Source of the DNA: a virus
Length of the DNA: 20,924 bases
IMG/VR virus record: IMGVR_UViG_3300026519_000074
Span: 1 to 20,924 of that record
Direction: 5' to 3' (one strand)
The notes below the pieces were generated by a model that ran no database searches, was not told the origin of the DNA, and worked only from the letters and a program-made list of their open reading frames with translations. Below are positions 4,100 to 18,424 of this stretch, one piece after another. Numbering within the stretch: the stretch's first letter is position 1; each line of letters starts with the position of its first letter. The position numbers were made by a program, and so were the translations under genes.

Positions 4100-5155
4100 T
4101 TATATTAAAACACTTAATTCATCTCCTATTCCTATCGAGGCAGGATCATCTAATGTGGTGACATTTAAAGATGCTCCACTTGTATTACCTTCGTTATCTA
4201 TCGCATTTACTTGTACCGAATACTCTGTATTAGGAACTAGATTTATAATATCAAAATTAATATTGGTAGTGGTTCCCTGACTTACGCCTCCCACATAAAC
4301 CTCATAATGGCTTAAGCCACTTCCAGTATCTGTACTAGCCCCCCAAGAAATAGTAGCGGAGTGCTTTTTAATGTTAGAGAAAGTAAGGTTAGATGGTAGA
4401 GTTGGAGGGTCGACATCAGGTGCTGAATTTTGCTCTATTTCATAATAAATTGTATTAACACCATTGCCATGATCTTGGTACGGTACACCCCAAGCTGCTG
4501 AGTTATGGGCAGCTCCTGCAACCTCAGTAAGTTCATAATACGCTGATTGCACTGCATTAATTGCAGATGCCGCAGACGGCATAGAATTTCCTCCGCCTAC
4601 TACCCAACTATTGGGGTCGTTTTGCCCATACCATCCTCTTAGAGGGGTAAAAGCACGATCAACAGCCCATTGTGCTTCCTGTACGGTAAATACTACATTA
4701 CTACCCGAAACAGGAAACACTCCTTTTATAGTACTTCTAAATTTGGAATGTAAGGGATCTAACTCCATTGTAAAATGGATACCAATCGCACCTAAGCTTA
4801 ATCCTGTTAAATAAATCTGATTTACATCAATTTTATAATCAGCTGCATTAGCAACTACATCATCAATTACATCTGCAACCCTTGCGTTGCTCCAGGTTTG
4901 AGAAGAGTCATAAGCCGCCCAAACTATCATAGGCCAATCTGTACCATCAGAATCTTTTACCATTTGGTCAAGATTACATTCGGTAATGGGTGTAGGCGAA
5001 TCTCTTGTTAATCCATCTGCTAAGCTCGTTTGTCCATTACCATGCATGAATATTAAGCATGGGTAGCCCAATGCTGGTGCACTTGCAAAATTAGTAGGTT
5101 TAGCCACATTTGCTGGTAATATTAATCCCGCAGGTTGTTCAATTGCCCAAGCCAT
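4100..5155 (-). CDS. Tail-associated alpha/beta-hydrolase (esterase type) with C-terminal FN3 domain
   Basis: A 351-residue two-domain protein. Residues about 1-245 form an alpha/beta-hydrolase of the esterase / polyhydroxybutyrate-depolymerase kind: oxyanion-hole strand CLIFMHGNG (33-41), nucleophile elbow GLSLG with Ser120, candidate acid Asp180 in WYGQNDP, and His217 in GAAHNS. Residues about 250-337 are a fibronectin type III domain with the ATISW, YEVYVGG and YSVQVNAIDNEGNTS strands typical of the fold. No signal peptide is present, so it is not a secreted enzyme. Its start overlaps the stop of the large fibre gene by one base, so it is made with the tail. The likely role is a virion depolymerase or deacetylase acting on acylated surface polysaccharide at adsorption. 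Fold and catalytic residues are visible; substrate and virion location are inferred. Confidence 0.85.
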   Translation of the reverse strand: MAWAIEQPAGLILPANVAKPTNFASAPALGYPCLIFMHGNGQTSLADGLTRDSPTPITECNLDQMVKDSDGTDWPMIVWAAYDSSQTWSNARVADVIDDVVANAADYKIDVNQIYLTGLSLGAIGIHFTMELDPLHSKFRSTIKGVFPVSGSNVVFTVQEAQWAVDRAFTPLRGWYGQNDPNSWVVGGGNSMPSAASAINAVQSAYYELTEVAGAAHNSAAWGVPYQDHGNGVNTIYYEIEQNSAPDVDPPTLPSNLTFSNIKKHSATISWGASTDTGSGLSHYEVYVGGVSQGTTTNINFDIINLVPNTEYSVQVNAIDNEGNTSGASLNVTTLDDPASIGIGDELSVLI

Positions 5156-10095: not shown

Positions 10096-11928
10096 TTACT
10101 GCACACTATAATTAAGCCCATTAACTACTCTAAGTAAAGCCTGCTCCACTTCTTTTTTAATGTCTTCTACCGATTCTTTAAGGTTGGTAATGCTAAAATT
10201 TTGCTCCCCAATTAAGTTATCCATACTAATAGTAATATTGGTGCTTTTGCTTCCGCCTCCATTAATGTTATCTATCCCTTCGGCTAGTTTGGTGTCGGTG
10301 TTTCCCGCAGCAGCATCAGCGGTTGGGGCCAATAACTCTTCGGCTTTGCTTTTGTTTGGGCTGGCGGCAGCTAGTTTGTTTACTGCACTAGAATTAGATC
10401 CTACTTTTATCTCTACAGGTGGTAGTAAATCAAATTTCTTTCTAAGGTTTTCAATTCCTGTTACACCAGAGCTTGCCAAATCACCCAAACTACCAGGTAA
10501 CTTAGAGGCTATTTCTAACAATTGTTGCAATGGCATTAACACCGCATCAAGCATAACCAAACCAATTCTTTTCAGCCCACTAACAATTCCTCCTTGATTA
10601 AAAGCTTCTGTTATACTATCCCAGTGCCTTCTAAAACTTTGAACCAAGTTTATAATCATTCCAAACGGTCCAAGCATTAAAGCAAGTGTAGCACCCCACT
10701 CATCATACTTTTTAATAACAACAACCGTTAATGCTATCAATGCTGCTATGGCTCCTACAACCAAACCAATAGGATTCGCATTAAGTGCTATATTTAAAAG
10801 CCATTGTTTTGCTGTTAAAATACTTGTCCATCCAGCCATTAATAACGTTGGAATCTTCATTGCGAACAACAACCCTTTACTAACAAGTAACACTGCATTA
10901 TATCCAAGATATGCAGCAGCTCCAACCCCAACCATATAACCAAGTGCTTCTATGGCTAACAAGTTCTCTTTTATCCAAATTACAGATGATTGAAAAGCCG
11001 TTGTAATTACATCCCATACTGTTTTAACCGCATCTCTAAATATTCTTAAATATGGAATTGCCGCACTTATAAAATCTTGAATTTTAACAGCCGCTACTCT
11101 CGCAAAAGCCACAATCTTGTCTTTATTAATATCTATAACCGTAGCCAATTTGCCAAAAACCTTGGCAATTAATGGATTAAAGGCTTCGCCAATTCCAATG
11201 CCCAAGCCTTGCATCTTGCCAGTAAACGTAGATATACGACCTCCAGCGGTCTTAGATTGCTCTATCATTAAATCAAAAAACATACCTCCTTCACTTGTAA
11301 GGTTGGTAAATGCGGTTTCTAAATCTTTGAATTTAAGTTTGCCTTGGCTAGCCATTTTCTTCACCTGATCTTCAGTAGTGCCTAGAGATTTCGCAAATTC
11401 TCCCATTATAGGAATCCCAGCATCCAATAATTGATTAATGTCTTCGGCCATTAATGTTCCCGCAATTTTTGCTTTTCCATAAATGGTAGATAGTTCATTA
11501 AAATCTTTACCGCTACCTGCAGCAATGTCTCCAATCTTACGTAATGATGGAATGATTTTATCTTGCGCTACTCCAAAAGCAAGCAAACCTTTACCTGCTT
11601 GTAGTACTTGCGCATTATCAAACGGAGTAACATTTGCAAACTCATTAAGCTGCGCTATGGAAGCATTGGCTTTATCTGCACTTTTTAAAAAGGTGGTAAA
11701 ACTGACTCGGGTTTGCTCCATTTCAATACCTAACCTATATGCAGCTCTTGCTCCACTAAACAAGGCGGCACCAATAGCCAAACCAGCAACTACACGCCCA
11801 ACGCCAGAAAAAGCAGACTTTAGCATATTTGCCTGTTTTTCGGTCTGGTTACTAACCCTGCCTAGCTTGCGTAATTTTCTTTCCGCATCGCTGGTTTTAA
11901 ACTTAATTAGGTATTCGTATAGTTTCAC
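10096..11928 (-). CDS. Tape measure protein
   Basis: A 610-residue protein that sets tail length and leaves the tail during DNA injection. The N-terminal part has a coiled start and a hydrophobic Gly/Ala stretch (43-63). Residues about 68-260 form the TMP N-terminal domain, with MEQTRVSFTTFLKS, NEFANVTPFDNAQVLQAGK, AEDINQLLDAGIP and SEGGMFFDLM. Hydrophobic segments lie at about 324-405, including the characteristic NPIGLVVGAIAALIAL. By the usual 1.5 Å per residue the tail would be about 90 nm, if the protein is not processed. The start is a GTG (11928-11926) with no Shine-Dalgarno. The start context AAAAGTGAAACTA is identical to that of the chaperone gene. The gene follows an intrinsic terminator by only 12 bases. 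Confidence 0.92.
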   Translation of the reverse strand: MKLYEYLIKFKTSDAERKLRKLGRVSNQTEKQANMLKSAFSGVGRVVAGLAIGAALFSGARAAYRLGIEMEQTRVSFTTFLKSADKANASIAQLNEFANVTPFDNAQVLQAGKGLLAFGVAQDKIIPSLRKIGDIAAGSGKDFNELSTIYGKAKIAGTLMAEDINQLLDAGIPIMGEFAKSLGTTEDQVKKMASQGKLKFKDLETAFTNLTSEGGMFFDLMIEQSKTAGGRISTFTGKMQGLGIGIGEAFNPLIAKVFGKLATVIDINKDKIVAFARVAAVKIQDFISAAIPYLRIFRDAVKTVWDVITTAFQSSVIWIKENLLAIEALGYMVGVGAAAYLGYNAVLLVSKGLLFAMKIPTLLMAGWTSILTAKQWLLNIALNANPIGLVVGAIAALIALTVVVIKKYDEWGATLALMLGPFGMIINLVQSFRRHWDSITEAFNQGGIVSGLKRIGLVMLDAVLMPLQQLLEIASKLPGSLGDLASSGVTGIENLRKKFDLLPPVEIKVGSNSSAVNKLAAASPNKSKAEELLAPTADAAAGNTDTKLAEGIDNINGGGSKSTNITISMDNLIGEQNFSITNLKESVEDIKKEVEQALLRVVNGLNYSVQ

Positions 11929-11990: not shown

Positions 11991-12164
11991 TTACATAGAA
12001 TTATGTTTTCTTTCTTCGTTTCTAGCCCATTCTACTCCTTTAAATGCTTCTGCCCAATCCTCGTCTGATAACCTATCTGGGTTTAACCCAGTGTGGTACC
12101 TAATTAGCGCATCTGCTTTAATAAATAACGAGGTCTCGTTTGTTATTTCCGCTTGGGCTAAAGC
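11991..12164 (-). CDS. -1 frameshift extension of the tail assembly chaperone (GT-type product)
   Basis: After the slippery heptamer, the -1 frame stays open from GCT at 12164 to TAA at 11991, giving 57 residues beginning ALAQAEITNETSLFIKADAL and ending EERKHNSM. Joined to residue 228 of the upstream frame it makes a 285-residue fusion. The extension has no suitable start of its own: its only ATG is the last sense codon. It contains a typical T-part pattern with aromatic and charged residues (YHTGLNPDRLSDEDWAEAF). The arrangement matches the lambda G/GT, P2 E/E' and Mu gp41 chaperones, made in two forms that hold the tape measure protein during tail assembly. Frame and heptamer are seen directly; use of the shift is inference. 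Confidence 0.85.
   Translation of the reverse strand, partial: ALAQAEITNETSLFIKADALIRYHTGLNPDRLSDEDWAEAFKGVEWARNEERKHNSM
12123..12148 (-). promoter_or_regulatory. Possible frameshift-stimulating stem-loop
   Basis: Fifteen bases after the slippery heptamer, AAATAAC (12148-12142) can pair with GTTATTT (12129-12123). The 12-base loop itself holds GAG and CTC that can pair. The stem is AT-rich and the spacer is longer than the usual 5-9 bases, so stimulation is uncertain. Lambda's comparable signal also lacks a strong structure. Confidence 0.35.
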
Positions 12165-12847
12165 TTTTTTAGCGTATTATGCTTAATAGACTTTACCTCT
12201 TCTACTGCTATTAGTAATCCCATAAAAGCACGAGTATCTTGTTTGAAAGCTTTTATGTCATCCATTGCCAGCCGTTCTATTAGATATTCGCTACTGGTAA
12301 ATGGTTGGTTCTTTTTATTACGCTTTTCGGCATACTTAATATCTGCTCTTGTTGCTAGCCTCAGCCTACAACTCTTACCTAACACCGTAACGACCGCATG
12401 GTCTTTCTTAAAATCAATGTCGTATTCGGGTAGATCAATAAGCTCGTCTAAATCATCCATTAAGCCAAAAATATGTGCTTCATCCTTGCGCAGCTCTTCA
12501 TCGCCTCCAAGCCAACAGTTATTTAAAATAGATTCTACTATTACAACCCTGCCTCCAGATTGTGCGGATGCAGCTATCATTTTCATGACACTTAGCTTGC
12601 ATGTAGGGTCAAATATATAGCCTACCTTGCCATCCGATTCAATTTCATAAATCTGCGCATATTGTTCTTTCCATGCCTGAATTTCTGCTTTTGTTACTTT
12701 TGCCATTTCTAATGGGGTTAAATTATACTCAATCTCACCTGTGTTTACAGGAATTTCGTTTGCGCTTGCAGGCATTATGAATAATGCCATTAAAGCAATC
12801 ATACTTATTACAATAAATCGTTTCATATTATAGTTATTTAGTTTCAC
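12158..12847 (-). CDS. Tail assembly chaperone (G-type product), with signal-peptide-like N-terminus
   Basis: The protein is 229 residues from the GTG at 12847. Residues 48-155 resemble the small chaperone encoded between tube and TMP genes in Bacteroidota contractile phages: IQAWKEQYAQIYEIE, VGYIFDPTCKLSVM and the distinctive NNCWLGGDEELRKDE. A second part (160-229) runs AVVTVLGKSCRLRLATRADI to VEEVKSIKHNTLKKL. The last codons before TAG form A AAA AAG, allowing a -1 shift into a 57-residue extension. Oddly, residues 8-31 (MKRFIVISMIALMALF, then MPASANE) form a textbook Sec signal peptide with an ASA cleavage site. A chaperone should stay cytoplasmic, so translation may instead start at Met48 (ATG 12706), or the leader may be a fusion. 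The start is therefore undecided; the chaperone assignment is strong from context. Confidence 0.8.
   Translation of the reverse strand: MKLNNYNMKRFIVISMIALMALFIMPASANEIPVNTGEIEYNLTPLEMAKVTKAEIQAWKEQYAQIYEIESDGKVGYIFDPTCKLSVMKMIAASAQSGGRVVIVESILNNCWLGGDEELRKDEAHIFGLMDDLDELIDLPEYDIDFKKDHAVVTVLGKSCRLRLATRADIKYAEKRNKKNQPFTSSEYLIERLAMDDIKAFKQDTRAFMGLLIAVEEVKSIKHNTLKKL
12164..12170 (-). promoter_or_regulatory. A AAA AAG -1 ribosomal frameshift site
   Basis: The minus strand reads CTA AAA AAG CTT TAG in the chaperone frame, so the heptamer A AAA AAG is in the correct X XXY YYZ phase, two codons before the stop. A AAA AAG is the most slippery -1 heptamer known in bacteria (E. coli dnaX). The alternative frame is open for 57 codons. 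The position between tube and TMP genes is the known site of this mechanism in tailed phages. Confidence 0.87.
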
Positions 12848-12892: not shown

Positions 12893-13309
12893 TTACACTC
12901 CCCATTCAACATCGCCTATAATAATAGGCAGCGTGTGTTCGGTGTTGGCATCGCCCTGGTTAATGTCTATCTCAACATCGGTAAATTCGGCATACTTTAT
13001 AATATCAGTACTAATTACGCCACCTGCTTCGGGCGCATAAGCCACCACTATATCAAATGGTTTAATGCTAAGGATAGACTTACCTGCTCCTGCATCCAGC
13101 ATTAATGCCCTTAATTCGCTTTGAAGTACTTTTATCTCCCCCTCGTGGGTTACATTACCTCGACCACGCTTAATGGCTTTTTTGCCTTTGGCATAAATAT
13201 TTTTCTTCTCCTGGGCCTCTTTATACTTAATTCCCAATAAGCCAATAACAGGCCTTCCGCCCATTACCACATTTAAGTCATTCCACCCATATTCTTCGCT
13301 GTTAAACAT
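12893..13309 (-). CDS. Tail tube protein
   Basis: A 138-residue protein that would polymerise into the inner tube of the contractile tail. It begins MFNSEEYGWNDLNVVMGGRPVIG, followed by the lysine-rich YKEAQEKKNIYAKGKKAIKRGRGN. This insertion is typical of tube proteins in which an extended loop contacts the next ring. The C-terminal half has LSIKPFDIVVAYAPEAG and YAEFTDVEIDINQGD strands. Its length (about 140) and its position directly after the sheath gene (5-base gap) and before the chaperone match the tube gene of myophages (Mu M, P2 FII, PBSX XkdM). A 45-base gap before the chaperone gene holds a GGAGGG sequence. Confidence 0.82.
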   Translation of the reverse strand: MFNSEEYGWNDLNVVMGGRPVIGLLGIKYKEAQEKKNIYAKGKKAIKRGRGNVTHEGEIKVLQSELRALMLDAGAGKSILSIKPFDIVVAYAPEAGGVISTDIIKYAEFTDVEIDINQGDANTEHTLPIIIGDVEWGV

Positions 13310-13314
13310 AGCTA

Positions 13315-14502
13315 TTAGATTGCAGGGTTTTCAAACCCTAGTTTTACATCAATTGTTTTACTGTAGAATTTTGGCCGCACCGCCAATGCTACACTTACCT
13401 TATTAGTACTAAGCACATTTTGCTTAGCATCCACTGTAGCACGCACACTGCTTACTTCATCAGCCAGCCCTAAATCAAGCGCATTTTGTATTTTTGCCTG
13501 GTAACTTTTAGCTACTGCTGCATCCATATAGCCGTCCTCATCTACATCAAGGTCATCCAGTATTTCCTCTATATAAGTGCCGTAGGTTATTACCATAGCT
13601 TTATCAATCACACGACCTCGTGCAATACTGGAGTAATCGTCTGATGCCGCAGTTGCGGTTGGGTCATCGTTAAAGAAATACCCGTTTTTACCTTGCCAGG
13701 GGCGCATAAAAATATACCCCTTATCGTGGAGTTGTCCTTGCTCTCCTGCGGTCATCGATTCAATAGTGGTTAAACCATCGCTCATAAAAGAATCGGTAAC
13801 ACCAAGATCGCCATCTTTAACCCTGCCTATATTGCGCTGTACGGGGTTAGCGGCAAGCCTGCCTAGAGCTAGACCAATGGAAGCCGCTTTACTGGTAGCC
13901 ACATCGTTTCCAATTACTACCCCCACCCGGTTATTAGTATTGCCTTTTAAATCGGTAAGGTTGGCTACATTGCCCTGGTAATCATTTGCGCCTATAAGCA
14001 CTCGCAAAGGCTTAAACTCACCTGCATACTCCTCTGCCAATGCGTGAGCAATGGCAATAGAATCATAGGCATCATCATCAAACCCACTAGTGTAGGCAGG
14101 CACATAAGCCCCATCAGGAATACGGCCAATGGCCATTAACCTAATATTGCCACCTGCGGCATCTAACACCTTTTTGGCTATATCGTTGGCTTTGTCGGCC
14201 ACTGTAACCATTAGTGTTGTATTTACATAGAGCATTACCCACAGCGCAGCACCTTCGCCAGCTTGTGCATAAAAGTCTTTTATGTTTTTCCAAACCTCTG
14301 TGCCGTTGGCTGTGTCGTAAGCTTCATCCAGTCCTAAAGCCTTCGCTTCATCTGTGCTAAATATTTGCTTTGGTTCAAGCAAATCTATGTTAGAAGCAAC
14401 CGCTACACCCGAAACCACCAGAGCAGCAACACCATCGGCAGAACCGGCAGTTAAGCCCAAGGCTCCGTTTTGAATTTCAATATCTACACTTGGTAAACCC
14501 AT
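13315..14502 (-). CDS. Tail sheath protein (DUF2586-like)
   Basis: A 395-residue contractile sheath protein of the short kind found in Bacteroidota phages, which I recall as DUF2586. The N-terminus MGLPSVDIEIQNGALG followed by GVAALVVSGVAV matches this group. GTEVWKNIKDFYAQAGEGAALWVMLY is the sheath-like substrate of an alpha/beta domain, and YDSIAIAHALAEEYAGEFKPLRVLIGANDYQG is also characteristic. The C-terminal region carries RGRVIDKAMVITYGTYIEEILDDLDVDEDG and ends VDVKL-like (IDVKLGFENPAI), the strand that links to neighbouring sheath subunits. It is followed by the tube gene, the normal order. A 20-base gap separates it from the HeH-tailed protein upstream. Confidence 0.82.
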   Translation of the reverse strand: MGLPSVDIEIQNGALGLTAGSADGVAALVVSGVAVASNIDLLEPKQIFSTDEAKALGLDEAYDTANGTEVWKNIKDFYAQAGEGAALWVMLYVNTTLMVTVADKANDIAKKVLDAAGGNIRLMAIGRIPDGAYVPAYTSGFDDDAYDSIAIAHALAEEYAGEFKPLRVLIGANDYQGNVANLTDLKGNTNNRVGVVIGNDVATSKAASIGLALGRLAANPVQRNIGRVKDGDLGVTDSFMSDGLTTIESMTAGEQGQLHDKGYIFMRPWQGKNGYFFNDDPTATAASDDYSSIARGRVIDKAMVITYGTYIEEILDDLDVDEDGYMDAAVAKSYQAKIQNALDLGLADEVSSVRATVDAKQNVLSTNKVSVALAVRPKFYSKTIDVKLGFENPAI

Positions 14503-15366: not shown

Positions 15367-15830
15367 AATCCGATATTACTTTCGTTTATGCCAATTTCTC
15401 GGCAAAAAGCTGCCACGTTAAACGAAGGACAAGCTTTTTTGCTTACATCATTATGGCCAATTACTCTTAATTTCTTGTTTCTAAGAATGTTAAATTTGAT
15501 ATAAATGGCTAAAGTTTCTTTTTGTTCACAAGTGCGAGTGTCTTTTGGTTCTCTGGTGCCTTTTTCTGCTCCACCTACATATACAATGTGTCTAGCAATT
15601 CCATTATAACCTCTTGCTCCGTTGCTAACCTCCCAAGGATCTATAATTGCATCCTGGTTCCAATCTATTAGGTTCTCCAGTGTTCCGTCAAGGTGTACCA
15701 TATCGGCATATCCAACCCTTCGCCACCCATTACCCTGTAAATGCCATTTCTCAATATCATCAGATGATACAGGCCGCCCTTCGGGGGTATCGGTGCAGTG
15801 GATAATAAGGTACTTTTGTTTTCGCATCAT
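15363..15830 (-). CDS. Endolysin: N-acetylmuramoyl-L-alanine amidase (T7 lysozyme type)
   Basis: This 155-residue zinc amidase cleaves the bond between N-acetylmuramate and L-alanine in peptidoglycan. All key positions of the Amidase_2 / T7 lysozyme fold are present: His11 in LIIHCTDTP, Tyr41 in VGYADMVHLDG, His126 in VIGHNDVS, Lys132 and Cys134 in KKACPSFNV. The spacing from His126 to Cys134 equals that in T7 lysozyme (122 to 130). There is no signal peptide, so release depends on holins, and its genes are adjacent: the XhlA-like gene upstream (4-base overlap) and the 3TM-type gene downstream (4-base overlap). The start has two ATGs in a row, MM. Confidence 0.93.
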   Translation of the reverse strand: MMRKQKYLIIHCTDTPEGRPVSSDDIEKWHLQGNGWRRVGYADMVHLDGTLENLIDWNQDAIIDPWEVSNGARGYNGIARHIVYVGGAEKGTREPKDTRTCEQKETLAIYIKFNILRNKKLRVIGHNDVSKKACPSFNVAAFCREIGINESNIGL

Positions 15831-16081
15831 TTAATGATTAATTCAAAAGAAATGGCAACTATTGCTGATGCTATTCCTCCGGAGATAAAACCCCACATTA
15901 ACACCTTGGTTTCTATTATATTTACTTTAACGAGTAGCTCTACGTACTTATCGTCATTCGCCTTTAATTCTACCTTTAGATCGTCAAAATCTCTTGCTAA
16001 TTCCCGCATTCGATCGTTAAGCCGAATAATTAGGTCTCTCTGGTTTAACCTTGTAAGGTCTATGGGTTCGTCTTGGCTCAT
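15827..16081 (-). CDS. XhlA-like small holin/haemolysin
   Basis: An 84-residue protein with a charged heptad-like helical N-terminal part (about 13-58, LNQRDLIIRLNDRMRELARDFDDLK) and one C-terminal membrane segment (about 61-81, LMWGFISGGIASAIVAISFEL). This is the layout of the XhlA family, the PBSX protein that helps its amidase lyse cells. It is the first gene of the lysis block, translationally coupled to the amidase. Upstream is a 64-base gap with a perfect 26-bp palindrome. The family assignment is by architecture and neighbours. Confidence 0.75.
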   Translation of the reverse strand: MSQDEPIDLTRLNQRDLIIRLNDRMRELARDFDDLKVELKANDDKYVELLVKVNIIETKVLMWGFISGGIASAIVAISFELIIK

Positions 16082-16094
16082 TTTTCTTTAGTGA

Positions 16095-16120
16095 AGCCCT
16101 CCGTTAGCTAACGGAGGGCT
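16095..16120. terminator. Perfect 26-bp palindrome between capsid and lysis genes
   Basis: The arm AGCCCTCCGTTAG (16095-16107) is followed directly by its exact complement (16108-16120), a GC-rich 13-bp dyad that can form a strong hairpin in RNA. It lies 25 bases after the capsid stop. No T-run follows on the minus strand (TTCACTAAAG), so it may be a partial terminator or an mRNA-stabilising hairpin rather than a classical terminator. A related left arm, CCCTCCGTAGCT, recurs at 12867-12878 before the chaperone gene. Confidence 0.6.
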
Positions 16121-16145: not shown

Positions 16146-17066
16146 TTAACCCGAAATCATAGCACTATGGCCATAATTATAAATTTTGGTACCCACAGCG
16201 TTTCCAGTAAACCTACCCTCATCTTTAGGTGGGTTATTACGAGTATTCCCGCTCATAGGCTTGTAATGCGATGTTAGGTTTAGCAAGGCCTTGATGGTAT
16301 GTGGAGCATAAAATCCAATACTCGAAGGCCTGTCCGTTCCAATAAGAGCAGCACCTTGTGCTATCTTAACATCGGTAACCGAATAGCTAACAGTTTCTTG
16401 ATTCCAGAAGAATTTAAAACCATACTGATCTACAGGCTCACCATTCATGGTCTTTACATAAATGTCTTTAAAGTTTTGATAGTTTAAAGCATCTATGGCT
16501 AAGTCGGTTAAATGCTCTGGGCATAATACCACATACCATTGATTTTGCTTGGTAACTTTAAGCTTATTCAACTCCTCTTTCCAAGTAATTAAATCCCTAA
16601 TAGTAAGCCTTAACACTCCAGCTCCTCTATCGGGCCCCGTTGTACGCAACACAGGCATTTCTGCAAAAGTGCCATTTTCAGGAGATACATTGTGCAATGT
16701 TTTAGCCGTCCAGCTTTCGCTAATAGCAGCTTGGCTGTCTGCAAACAAACGTCCTTTTCTATCCAAGGCACTCGTGCGTATTTCTTCTTTATCGGTTTCA
16801 AAAGGCGAAGTGGACACATATTGCCAAGGAATTACCTGATTTTCAATATCAAACTGCTTCACATCACCATCAAGGTAATCGTCTGCTTTATCCCAATCAA
16901 CCGTAATGGGTGCGCCAATTTTATGAACGATAATGCCAGCCTTGCTAATTGCTGCTTTAGGTGCCGAAGGAATAACAGACATAAAGTCCATTTTTGTATT
17001 CCTTAGCACATTAACCAATTGAGGGAGTATAAACCTATCTATATATTCTCCGGTAGTATAAGCCAT
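16146..17066 (-). CDS. Major capsid protein
   Basis: A 306-residue protein that directly follows the prohead protease gene, as the coat protein does in most tailed phages. It begins MAYTTGEYIDRFILPQLVNVLR, followed by a hydrophobic alpha/beta mix consistent with an HK97-type coat. Features include DADSQ-like AIS segments, ITWKEELNKLKVTKQNQWYVVLCPEHLTDLAIDALN (an A-domain type stretch, about 155-190), and a C-terminal YAPHTIKALLNLTSHYKPMSGN. There are no signal or membrane segments. The leader is A/T-rich with no Shine-Dalgarno, as expected for a highly expressed Bacteroidota gene. A perfect palindrome follows the stop. The identity rests on length and position, as I cannot quote a named family. 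Confidence 0.78.
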   Translation of the reverse strand: MAYTTGEYIDRFILPQLVNVLRNTKMDFMSVIPSAPKAAISKAGIIVHKIGAPITVDWDKADDYLDGDVKQFDIENQVIPWQYVSTSPFETDKEEIRTSALDRKGRLFADSQAAISESWTAKTLHNVSPENGTFAEMPVLRTTGPDRGAGVLRLTIRDLITWKEELNKLKVTKQNQWYVVLCPEHLTDLAIDALNYQNFKDIYVKTMNGEPVDQYGFKFFWNQETVSYSVTDVKIAQGAALIGTDRPSSIGFYAPHTIKALLNLTSHYKPMSGNTRNNPPKDEGRFTGNAVGTKIYNYGHSAMISG

Positions 17067-17111: not shown

Positions 17112-17579
17112 TTAGCCGTTTTTAACGTTTCCGTATTCTGCATTAAATAATGCTTCAAAAGCTTTGGGGTCTTTCTCCTCCAACTCTTTGCGCTCATTCG
17201 GGGTTAAATCCTCCCATGTTTTTTTAGAGCTTTCAGTGTTTTCACCTTTAAGCGCAGCGATTAGTTCGGATAATCGAAAATCTTTAACCTCGTTACCACC
17301 GCCTGCCTGTGCTGCTGCATCTGGCAATAAATCCATACAAGCATCAATATCAGCTTCTGCCAATTTTTTCATGCTTGCTTCATTTTCTTTGGTTACAACC
17401 CCTGCTTTTTTGCCAAGGGTTAAAAAAGAAGCCACCATTTTTTCTTTGGTTTTTTCGTTTCCTTGGGGTTTTTCGTTGGCTTTAGCTTTGGTTTCTAAAG
17501 CGGTTAATGCTGCTTCAATTTGTTCTTCGGTGGCATCTTCTGCCAAACCAAGTCGTTTAATTAATTTTGATTTATCCAT
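17112..17579 (-). other. Possible internally started scaffold protein nested in the protease gene
   Basis: Within the protease/scaffold gene an ATG (17579-17577) begins MDKSKLIKRLGLAEDATEEQ, preceded by GAAGAGAAA. The product would be 155 residues of highly charged, helical sequence without the protease domain, ending at the same stop. Mu (I/Z) and lambda (C/Nu3) make separate scaffolds from such nested starts. Only the ATG and the domain boundary are visible; use of the start is inference. Confidence 0.4.
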
Positions 17580-18212
17580 TTTCTCTTCAGTTTCATAATT
17601 TGTTGCTAATTTTTCATTATAGTATGCCGCCATTTCTTCAAAAGAAGCCTCGGTACTTGTTTTAGACTTCTTTTCGTTTGGAATAACTTCATCAACAAGT
17701 CCAACTTTTTTGGCCTCCTCGGCAGTAAACCATTTGTCCTCACCTTCCTTCATCCAGTTATCAAGAATCCATTGTTTATCCTTTCCTGTTTTACTGGCAT
17801 ACAACTCAGCTAAGTCATTGTTTAGTGTTTTTAGTAAATTTCCGTAATTGATTATTTTATTGGCACTACCAGACACTCCACCACTTCCTTGATGAATCAT
17901 TATTCTTGTTCCTTTCATCATGGCCGAATGCCCAGTTGAAATTGCGATGGCAGAACCCATGCTAGCAGCAACACCATCTACAATAGAGCCTGTTTCCAGC
18001 TCTGATGCAGATATTACCGAATTAACAGCAACACCTTCAAACATTGCACCACCAGGGCAATGAATCCTAAATACAACTTTTTTAAAACCCTGCCTTTTAG
18101 CCATTTCTAAAGATTTAGAAATATCTAAAGCGTTAATCCTTCCCCATTCCGACACGGTTCCATATAACCTCACCTCGGCTACGCTTTTCGATTTTGCAGT
18201 TAAATTAAACAT
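17112..18212 (-). CDS. ClpP-type prohead protease with C-terminal scaffold region
   Basis: From the ATG at 18212 the protein is 366 residues. Residues about 10-177 form a ClpP-like serine protease. The catalytic triad is visible: Ser84 in GVAASMGSA, His107 in RIMIHQG, and Asp159 in EDKWFTAEEA, followed by GLVDEV as in ClpP. Residues about 185-366 are charged and helical, including ALTALETKAKANEKPQGNEK, as expected for an internal scaffold region. The protein would shape the procapsid and then cleave the scaffold and coat. A TTG at 18302 would add 30 residues, but these contain no conserved feature and lie over the divergent control region, so the ATG is preferred. The capsid gene follows after 45 bases. 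Confidence 0.88.
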   Translation of the reverse strand: MFNLTAKSKSVAEVRLYGTVSEWGRINALDISKSLEMAKRQGFKKVVFRIHCPGGAMFEGVAVNSVISASELETGSIVDGVAASMGSAIAISTGHSAMMKGTRIMIHQGSGGVSGSANKIINYGNLLKTLNNDLAELYASKTGKDKQWILDNWMKEGEDKWFTAEEAKKVGLVDEVIPNEKKSKTSTEASFEEMAAYYNEKLATNYETEEKMDKSKLIKRLGLAEDATEEQIEAALTALETKAKANEKPQGNEKTKEKMVASFLTLGKKAGVVTKENEASMKKLAEADIDACMDLLPDAAAQAGGGNEVKDFRLSELIAALKGENTESSKKTWEDLTPNERKELEEKDPKAFEALFNAEYGNVKNG

Positions 18213-18424
18213 ACATTGTGTTAATTGGTGTTTAGTACACGAAGTACCAAATTTGATGGCATACACAAGTTTTTGCAATAAAAAAACAGATGTGTTTACC
18301 AATTTGGTCGATATTAGCTCCTATTTGGTGTCAAATTCGCACCTAATAGGTCGAGCCATCGCCTTTTTGCTTTAAAAACAAGATTCAATCTTTCAACTTT
18401 ACAGCTGTTAACTAATTACAACCT
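18213..18424. promoter_or_regulatory. Divergent control region with operator-like dyads
   Basis: This 212-base interval separates the divergent protease and terminase genes, so it must serve both transcripts. It contains ACCAAAT (18246-18252), the 11-bp palindrome ACCAATTTGGT (18298-18308), and ATTTGGT again at 18323-18329, exactly 21 bp from the first ATTTGGT (18302-18308), two helical turns. A larger dyad, CCTATTTGGTG (18320-18330) with CACCTAATAGG (18340-18350), encloses a 9-base loop. GGTCGA occurs at 18306-18311 and 18349-18354. No exact Bacteroidota TAnnTTTG promoter was found. Late-gene activator or repressor binding is inferred. Confidence 0.6.

Follow-up and report, generated by a model that had tools for sequence, protein, structure and literature searches.

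The sequence examined here, hereafter the window, is the whole 20,924-nucleotide stretch of IMG/VR virus record IMGVR_UViG_3300026519_000074. Its minus strand carries a contractile-tail module in the order sheath, tube, G/T, tape measure and then hub genes. The sheath gene (13315–14502) was assigned to DUF2586 by Pfam (PF10758, 1.8e-49) and to PHROG 907, tail sheath, while the tape measure gene (10096–11928) matched Pfam TMP_3 (1.2e-23) and PHROG 9959. The tube gene (12893–13309) was identified from PHROG 4579, a tail protein family (1e-14), and from its position after the sheath; its stronger match is PHROG 9206, named major head protein. These Pfam and PHROG assignments of the neighbours bear out the placement of G/T between tube and tape measure genes in the initial annotation. 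A Clp-type protease gene (17112–18302) and a gene in the capsid position (16146–17066) are also found on the minus strand, and the terminase gene lies on the plus strand. A perfect 26-base palindrome (16095–16120), possibly a terminator, separates the minus-strand genes 16146–17066 and 15827–16081. The gene at 4100–5155, which lies amid the genes for tail fibres and baseplate, encodes a protein in which a fibronectin type III domain (Pfam fn3) follows a sequence that looks esterase-like by eye. A D12-class adenine DNA methyltransferase (78–899) is located at the contig end, past the genes for tail fibres.

On the minus strand, the 3' end of the chaperone frame reads ACG CTA AAA AAG CTT TAG. 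It includes the slippery heptamer A AAA AAG (12164–12170) in exact X XXY YYZ phase, followed by a single sense codon, CTT (12163–12161), and the 0-frame stop TAG (12160–12158), a spacing that nearly all relatives preserve. Starting at G12164, the -1 frame encodes the T part (11991–12164), ALAQAEITNETSLFIKADALIRYHTGLNPDRLSDEDWAEAFKGVEWARNEERKHNSM, with exactly 57 sense codons before TAA at 11993–11991; upstream, the frame is closed 5 codons before the 0-frame stop. None of the first 15 codons of T is ATG, GTG or TTG, and its sole Met is the last residue. The window sequence thus agrees with the initial reading of both the in-phase slip site near the chaperone stop and the 57-codon extension lacking a usable start. 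A Mu-type -2 shift into T was considered and set aside: the conserved T sits in the -1 frame, and the -2/+1-equivalent frame stays open over just 14 codons.

By itself the heptamer carries no weight as evidence, since this AT-rich window has many in-phase A6 sites. Over 6444 codon steps, the window genes contain 12 in-phase A6N heptamers, 5 of them AAAAAAG, and 55 in-phase XXXYYYZ heptamers of any kind. The -1 frame is also often open past the ends of other window genes, because adjoining genes use it; a single further in-phase heptamer (AAACCCT, close to where the sheath gene ends) opens into a longer -1 extension. The excess over chance comes from conservation in relatives.

When the window G alone was used as a query for related loci, zero matches were obtained, and the conserved neighbours (sheath and hub genes) were therefore used to reach the loci of relatives; a tblastn search of G against phage records returned two matches only, both unannotated. 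A profile scan of viral contigs identified 318 relatives, of which 80 were kept, and genome contigs contributed 71 loci, nearly all from Bacteroidota, plus one Chlorobiaceae bin. The relatives, approximately 150 in number, come from isolated Winoviridae phages as well as from viral contigs and genomes of Bacteroidota. Nearly all of them share the same layout: G runs into the slip site, a single sense codon separates this from the stop, and the -1 frame continues into a T part in which a P..L....W pattern is conserved. The layout persists at 27–35% G identity. T is 54–58% identical in the three nearest relatives (L002–L004), and a Pro, a Leu and two Trp residues are kept throughout. Homologues with an in-phase heptamer and a -1 extension conserved as protein, which the initial annotation had proposed to look for, were recovered; the refuting outcome named there, loss of the heptamer or decay of the -1 frame in related phages, did not come about.

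The slip site itself varies within this layout. Six of the loci (L002, L003, L004, L009, L010 and L011) carry an in-phase AAAAAAG or AAAAAAC, one codon, the stop and a -1 T, and L012 has G GAA AAG where the others carry the A6 heptamer. A AAA AAG was found in 43 and G GAA AAG in 9 of the 81 dereplicated viral loci, with corresponding counts of 26 and 16 in the 71 genome loci; other relatives have non-canonical sites such as G GTA AAG and G GGG GAG. Runs of A can cause transcriptional slippage, and RNA polymerase stuttering on the six-A run present at the window site could yield an edited mRNA that is translated normally into the fusion. Six A is, however, short for polymerase slippage, and the many relatives whose sites contain no more than A4 or A3 (G GAA AAG, G GTA AAG) keep T and the spacing in the same layout, which makes this route very unlikely; the strict codon phase of the site fits tRNA slippage instead.

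Codon choice at the junction was highly restricted. Of the dereplicated relatives whose G closes with Lys-Lys and one further codon, 70 of 70 have A-AAA-AAR, against 13.2 expected from local codon usage; of those closing with Glu-Lys, 23 of 23 have xTG GAA AAG. Such synonymous constraint is the pattern that a slip site should show. Within T, the differences between 25 close pairs number 213, 143 and 485 at -1-frame codon positions 1, 2 and 3; their concentration at third positions indicates that T is translated in the -1 frame. With the window represented by a single uncultivated virus contig, T might be taken for an unexpressed out-of-frame pseudogene remnant or an assembly error. The same-codon frame break, however, recurs in about 150 records, isolate genomes included, and T is under protein-level selection; this explanation is already refuted for the family as a whole and has a practically negligible probability here.

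Some features of the related loci are recorded in their own right. The second most frequent site is G GAA AAG (e.g., L055, L065, L096, L112 and L146); for tRNA-Glu to pair with GGA in the -1 frame, a G-U pair would be required at the middle position, and this non-canonical site is nevertheless strictly kept (23/23). Throughout L013–L163 the stop lies exactly one codon past the slip site nearly always, even with an altered heptamer, and the 0-frame stop shares bases with a conserved Leu/Val/Ile codon in T. In L100, L148 and L157, T is conserved and the junction has neither a canonical heptamer nor an evident start, the sites being G GAG GAG, G GAA GAG and G GTG GAG. The T frame of L119 stays open over 831 codons and apparently enters the tape measure gene, which may reflect a fusion or an assembly indel. 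L016, L099 and L124 were rejected as counterexamples, as they look indel-damaged or badly assembled.

In L151 and L152, the slip site is lost and an ATG in the T frame overlaps the G stop (ATGA), an apparent switch from frameshifting to translational coupling. Frameshifting is therefore not the sole route to T in the family, since T has an ATG of its own in these two loci. Re-initiation past the stop of G, with T as a separate product and no fusion, gains some plausibility from these loci and from the ability of Bacteroidota starts to do without Shine-Dalgarno pairing. It is exceedingly improbable in the window, where T has no start, the first 15 codons being free of ATG, GTG and TTG and the only Met standing last. 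An ATG near the start of T is likewise absent in 69 of the 81 dereplicated viral relatives, and re-initiation would give no reason to select A-AAA-AAR at synonymous positions.

G belongs to PHROG 19076, a family of "unknown function", which it matched in two stretches. Neither Pfam nor a sequence search of the PDB yielded a real match to G; T had no match in Pfam and nothing significant in PHROGs. The AlphaFold model of G (pLDDT 92.6) shows an order of strands followed by helices that occurs twice, and T was predicted to fold as two helices (pLDDT 82). Foldseek alone returned no PDB match to the G model below E 0.001. Structural alignment against the PDB placed 3FGX at rank 1 (model residues 8–99, N-terminal half, Z 6.6), 3KLU at rank 2 (residues 100–175, C-terminal half, Z 6.1) and 2OB9 at rank 4 (residues 99–176, C-terminal half, Z 3.8), with sequence identities to G of 11–17% and middling Z values, all below 8. 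All three structures (3FGX, YqbN and HK97 gp13) are phage tail assembly chaperones (PMC9603447). Three members of one small functional class among the top model-based matches are hard to ascribe to chance, and the predicted fold of G resembles that of a tail chaperone; at moderate Z, this is the weakest of the lambda-type features found here.

The chaperone domain has probably been doubled in tandem in the window's branch, as L009–L012 each carry a single domain. Direct BLASTP comparison of the two G halves gave no match, and hhalign profile comparison lent moderate support, with E ~1e-4 and a probability of 36–57%. The duplication is graded as probable because its support consists of hhalign, the two PHROG 19076 stretches and the repeated order in the model.

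The start of G was compared with those of its relatives. The frame can be read from GTG 12847, through a 47-codon in-frame upstream extension (12707–12847) with signal-peptide-like residues, MKRFIVISMIALMALFIMPASANE, that probably lies outside the chaperone. The extension, which had no meaningful tblastn match in any fetched relative locus, may be an annotation trap, or else may have been acquired in frame recently. In the relatives, G begins at the site equivalent to ATG 12706, and L002 has an in-frame stop just before the Met aligned with it. This upstream stop and the absence of the extension from relatives make ATG 12706 the better start, giving a G of 182 aa (12158–12706) and a G-T of 238 aa; from GTG 12847 the corresponding products would be 229 residues, the first 47 signal-peptide-like, and 285 residues. 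Based on this alignment of starts, the true start is probably ATG 12706 and the fusion about 238 residues long. The 285-residue fusion given in the initial annotation presumes GTG 12847 and 47 residues that relatives lack, and should be shortened accordingly.

Together, these results make it very likely that two forms of a tail assembly chaperone, G and G-T, are made from this locus by -1 ribosomal frameshifting; the programmed frameshift and G/GT-type chaperone first proposed for this DNA find support in the relatives, the gene order and the predicted structure of G. Most ribosomes would stop at TAG 12158 and release the 182-residue G. In a minority, tRNA-Lys on AAA in the P site and on AAG in the A site would move back one base onto AAA AAA, and the slipped ribosomes would continue with GCT TTA to give the fusion carrying T. 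We infer that this slippage occurs, and its efficiency, and by analogy with lambda we infer the roles of the two forms: many copies of G would coat the tape measure protein, a few copies of G-T would deliver tube subunits to it so that a tube of the right length polymerises, and after tube assembly both would leave (PMC5009743).

Folding of the window predicted a weak AT-rich hairpin at 12120–12147, 16 nt past the heptamer, as a possible stimulator (-4.9 kcal/mol; z -2.1 over 35 nt and -1.6 over 70 nt, ranging from -2.1 to -0.1 by stretch); a canonical -1 signal would have a stable structure 5–10 nt past the heptamer. The stem-loop initially placed at 12148–12123 therefore exists with slightly shifted limits; it is weak, is not conserved, and differs from the covarying hairpin of relatives, which lies nearer the heptamer. 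Across 132 loci, the 50–70 nt downstream folded better than controls, with mean z values of -1.3 and -1.7 compared with -0.2 and -0.3. In 17 two-domain relatives forming one clade, a hairpin starting 8 nt past the heptamer is 90% paired and covarying, with GC, UA, AU and CG at one column pair in which both members are third codon positions. As this hairpin was derived from the same sequences, the shuffles and the compensatory changes outweigh the pairing percentage.

Upstream of the slip site, AAGGAG was present in 24 of the 44 Lys-Glu loci of the single-domain branch, whereas codon usage predicts 8.8 and the Lys-Glu pairs of these loci 11.7, kinship being ignored. The element sits 8 nt upstream of the slip site (e.g., L048, L063, L072, L103 and L114); the window junction has no such upstream AAGGAG or Shine-Dalgarno-like element. 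Bacteroidota ribosomes seldom use Shine-Dalgarno pairing for initiation, and their anti-Shine-Dalgarno sequence is occluded (PMC8710568). Given that occlusion, the enrichment of AAGGAG is unexpected for Bacteroidota.

It is conceivable, though on balance doubtful, that the cassette represents a distinct recoding signal of Bacteroidota phages, composed of X XNA AAR, the stop, a hairpin and AAGGAG, together with a doubled chaperone. Under this joint proposal, the sites A AAA AAR, G GAA AAG and G GTA AAG would all be instances of X XNA AAR, and the stop fixed one codon downstream would belong to the signal itself. AAGGAG, confined to one branch, would work despite a mostly hidden anti-Shine-Dalgarno, and the doubling of the chaperone domain would belong to the window's branch.

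Frameshifted tail chaperones are textbook knowledge for tailed phages. In the open-access papers searched, no frameshifted chaperone was found described for Bacteroidota Mu-like phages; as subscription journals are mostly missing from this literature, the negative is weak evidence of novelty. We consider the novelty modest, but PHROGs lists the family under "unknown function", and reference phage records leave T without annotation. The fixed one-codon spacing, the G GAA AAG sites and the possible Shine-Dalgarno-like stimulator are the more interesting leads. The analysis gives PHROG 19076 a function and supplies the C-terminal part that it lacked; this is a large, widespread and mostly unannotated family of Bacteroidota phages and prophages whose hosts include gut and marine Bacteroidota and whose T is omitted or given a wrong start in reference annotations. 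The natural slip-site variants, with and without the Shine-Dalgarno-like element, also offer material for testing -1 frameshifting in Bacteroidota.

Among known systems, E. coli dnaX has the same heptamer, A AAA AAG, and combines an upstream AAGGAG with a downstream structure at its frameshift site, a layout that many single-domain relatives resemble. The window differs from it in having no upstream Shine-Dalgarno-like element, and in that the dnaX shift yields a shortened product whereas the shift here would extend the protein. With the gp41/gp42 region of Mu the locus shares a Mu-like contractile tail module. The initial annotation had cited Mu gp41 as a parallel, which holds for a frameshifted chaperone but not for the direction: the KS10 paper, citing Xu et al. 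2004, reports the Mu shift as -2 (PMC2628397), in contrast to -1 in the window.

HK97 gp13 (2OB9), YqbN of B. subtilis (3KLU) and Rbstp2171 (3FGX) share the chaperone fold predicted for G, the window protein differing in holding two such domains per chain. The Winoviridae, namely Flavobacterium phages FPSV-S1 and pippi8-1 and Winogradskyella phage Peternella_1, share the gene order, the DUF2586 sheath, A AAA AAG with one codon and the stop, and the -1 T part; phage fF4 has a variant of this arrangement. T is left unannotated in the FPSV-S1 and Peternella_1 records, and a fragment of it is entered in the pippi8-1 record as a separate hypothetical gene with an internal ATG. The Winoviridae core genes comprise Clp protease, major capsid, sheath, protein D and others; the window has a Clp-type protease, a sheath and hub proteins, and is at most a possible member of the family. 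Sheath identity is weak, only 24–28%, and G of these isolates is so diverged as to be hardly recognisable. Lambda G/GT provides a close parallel in design: the position between tube and tape measure genes, the -1 direction, the pairing of G with T, the startless T and the slip site at the 3' end of G are all shared. The lambda site is G GGA AAG rather than A AAA AAG, and the window phage is set apart by its contractile tail, by G and T proteins that have no Pfam match, and by a G that is probably a tandem duplication.
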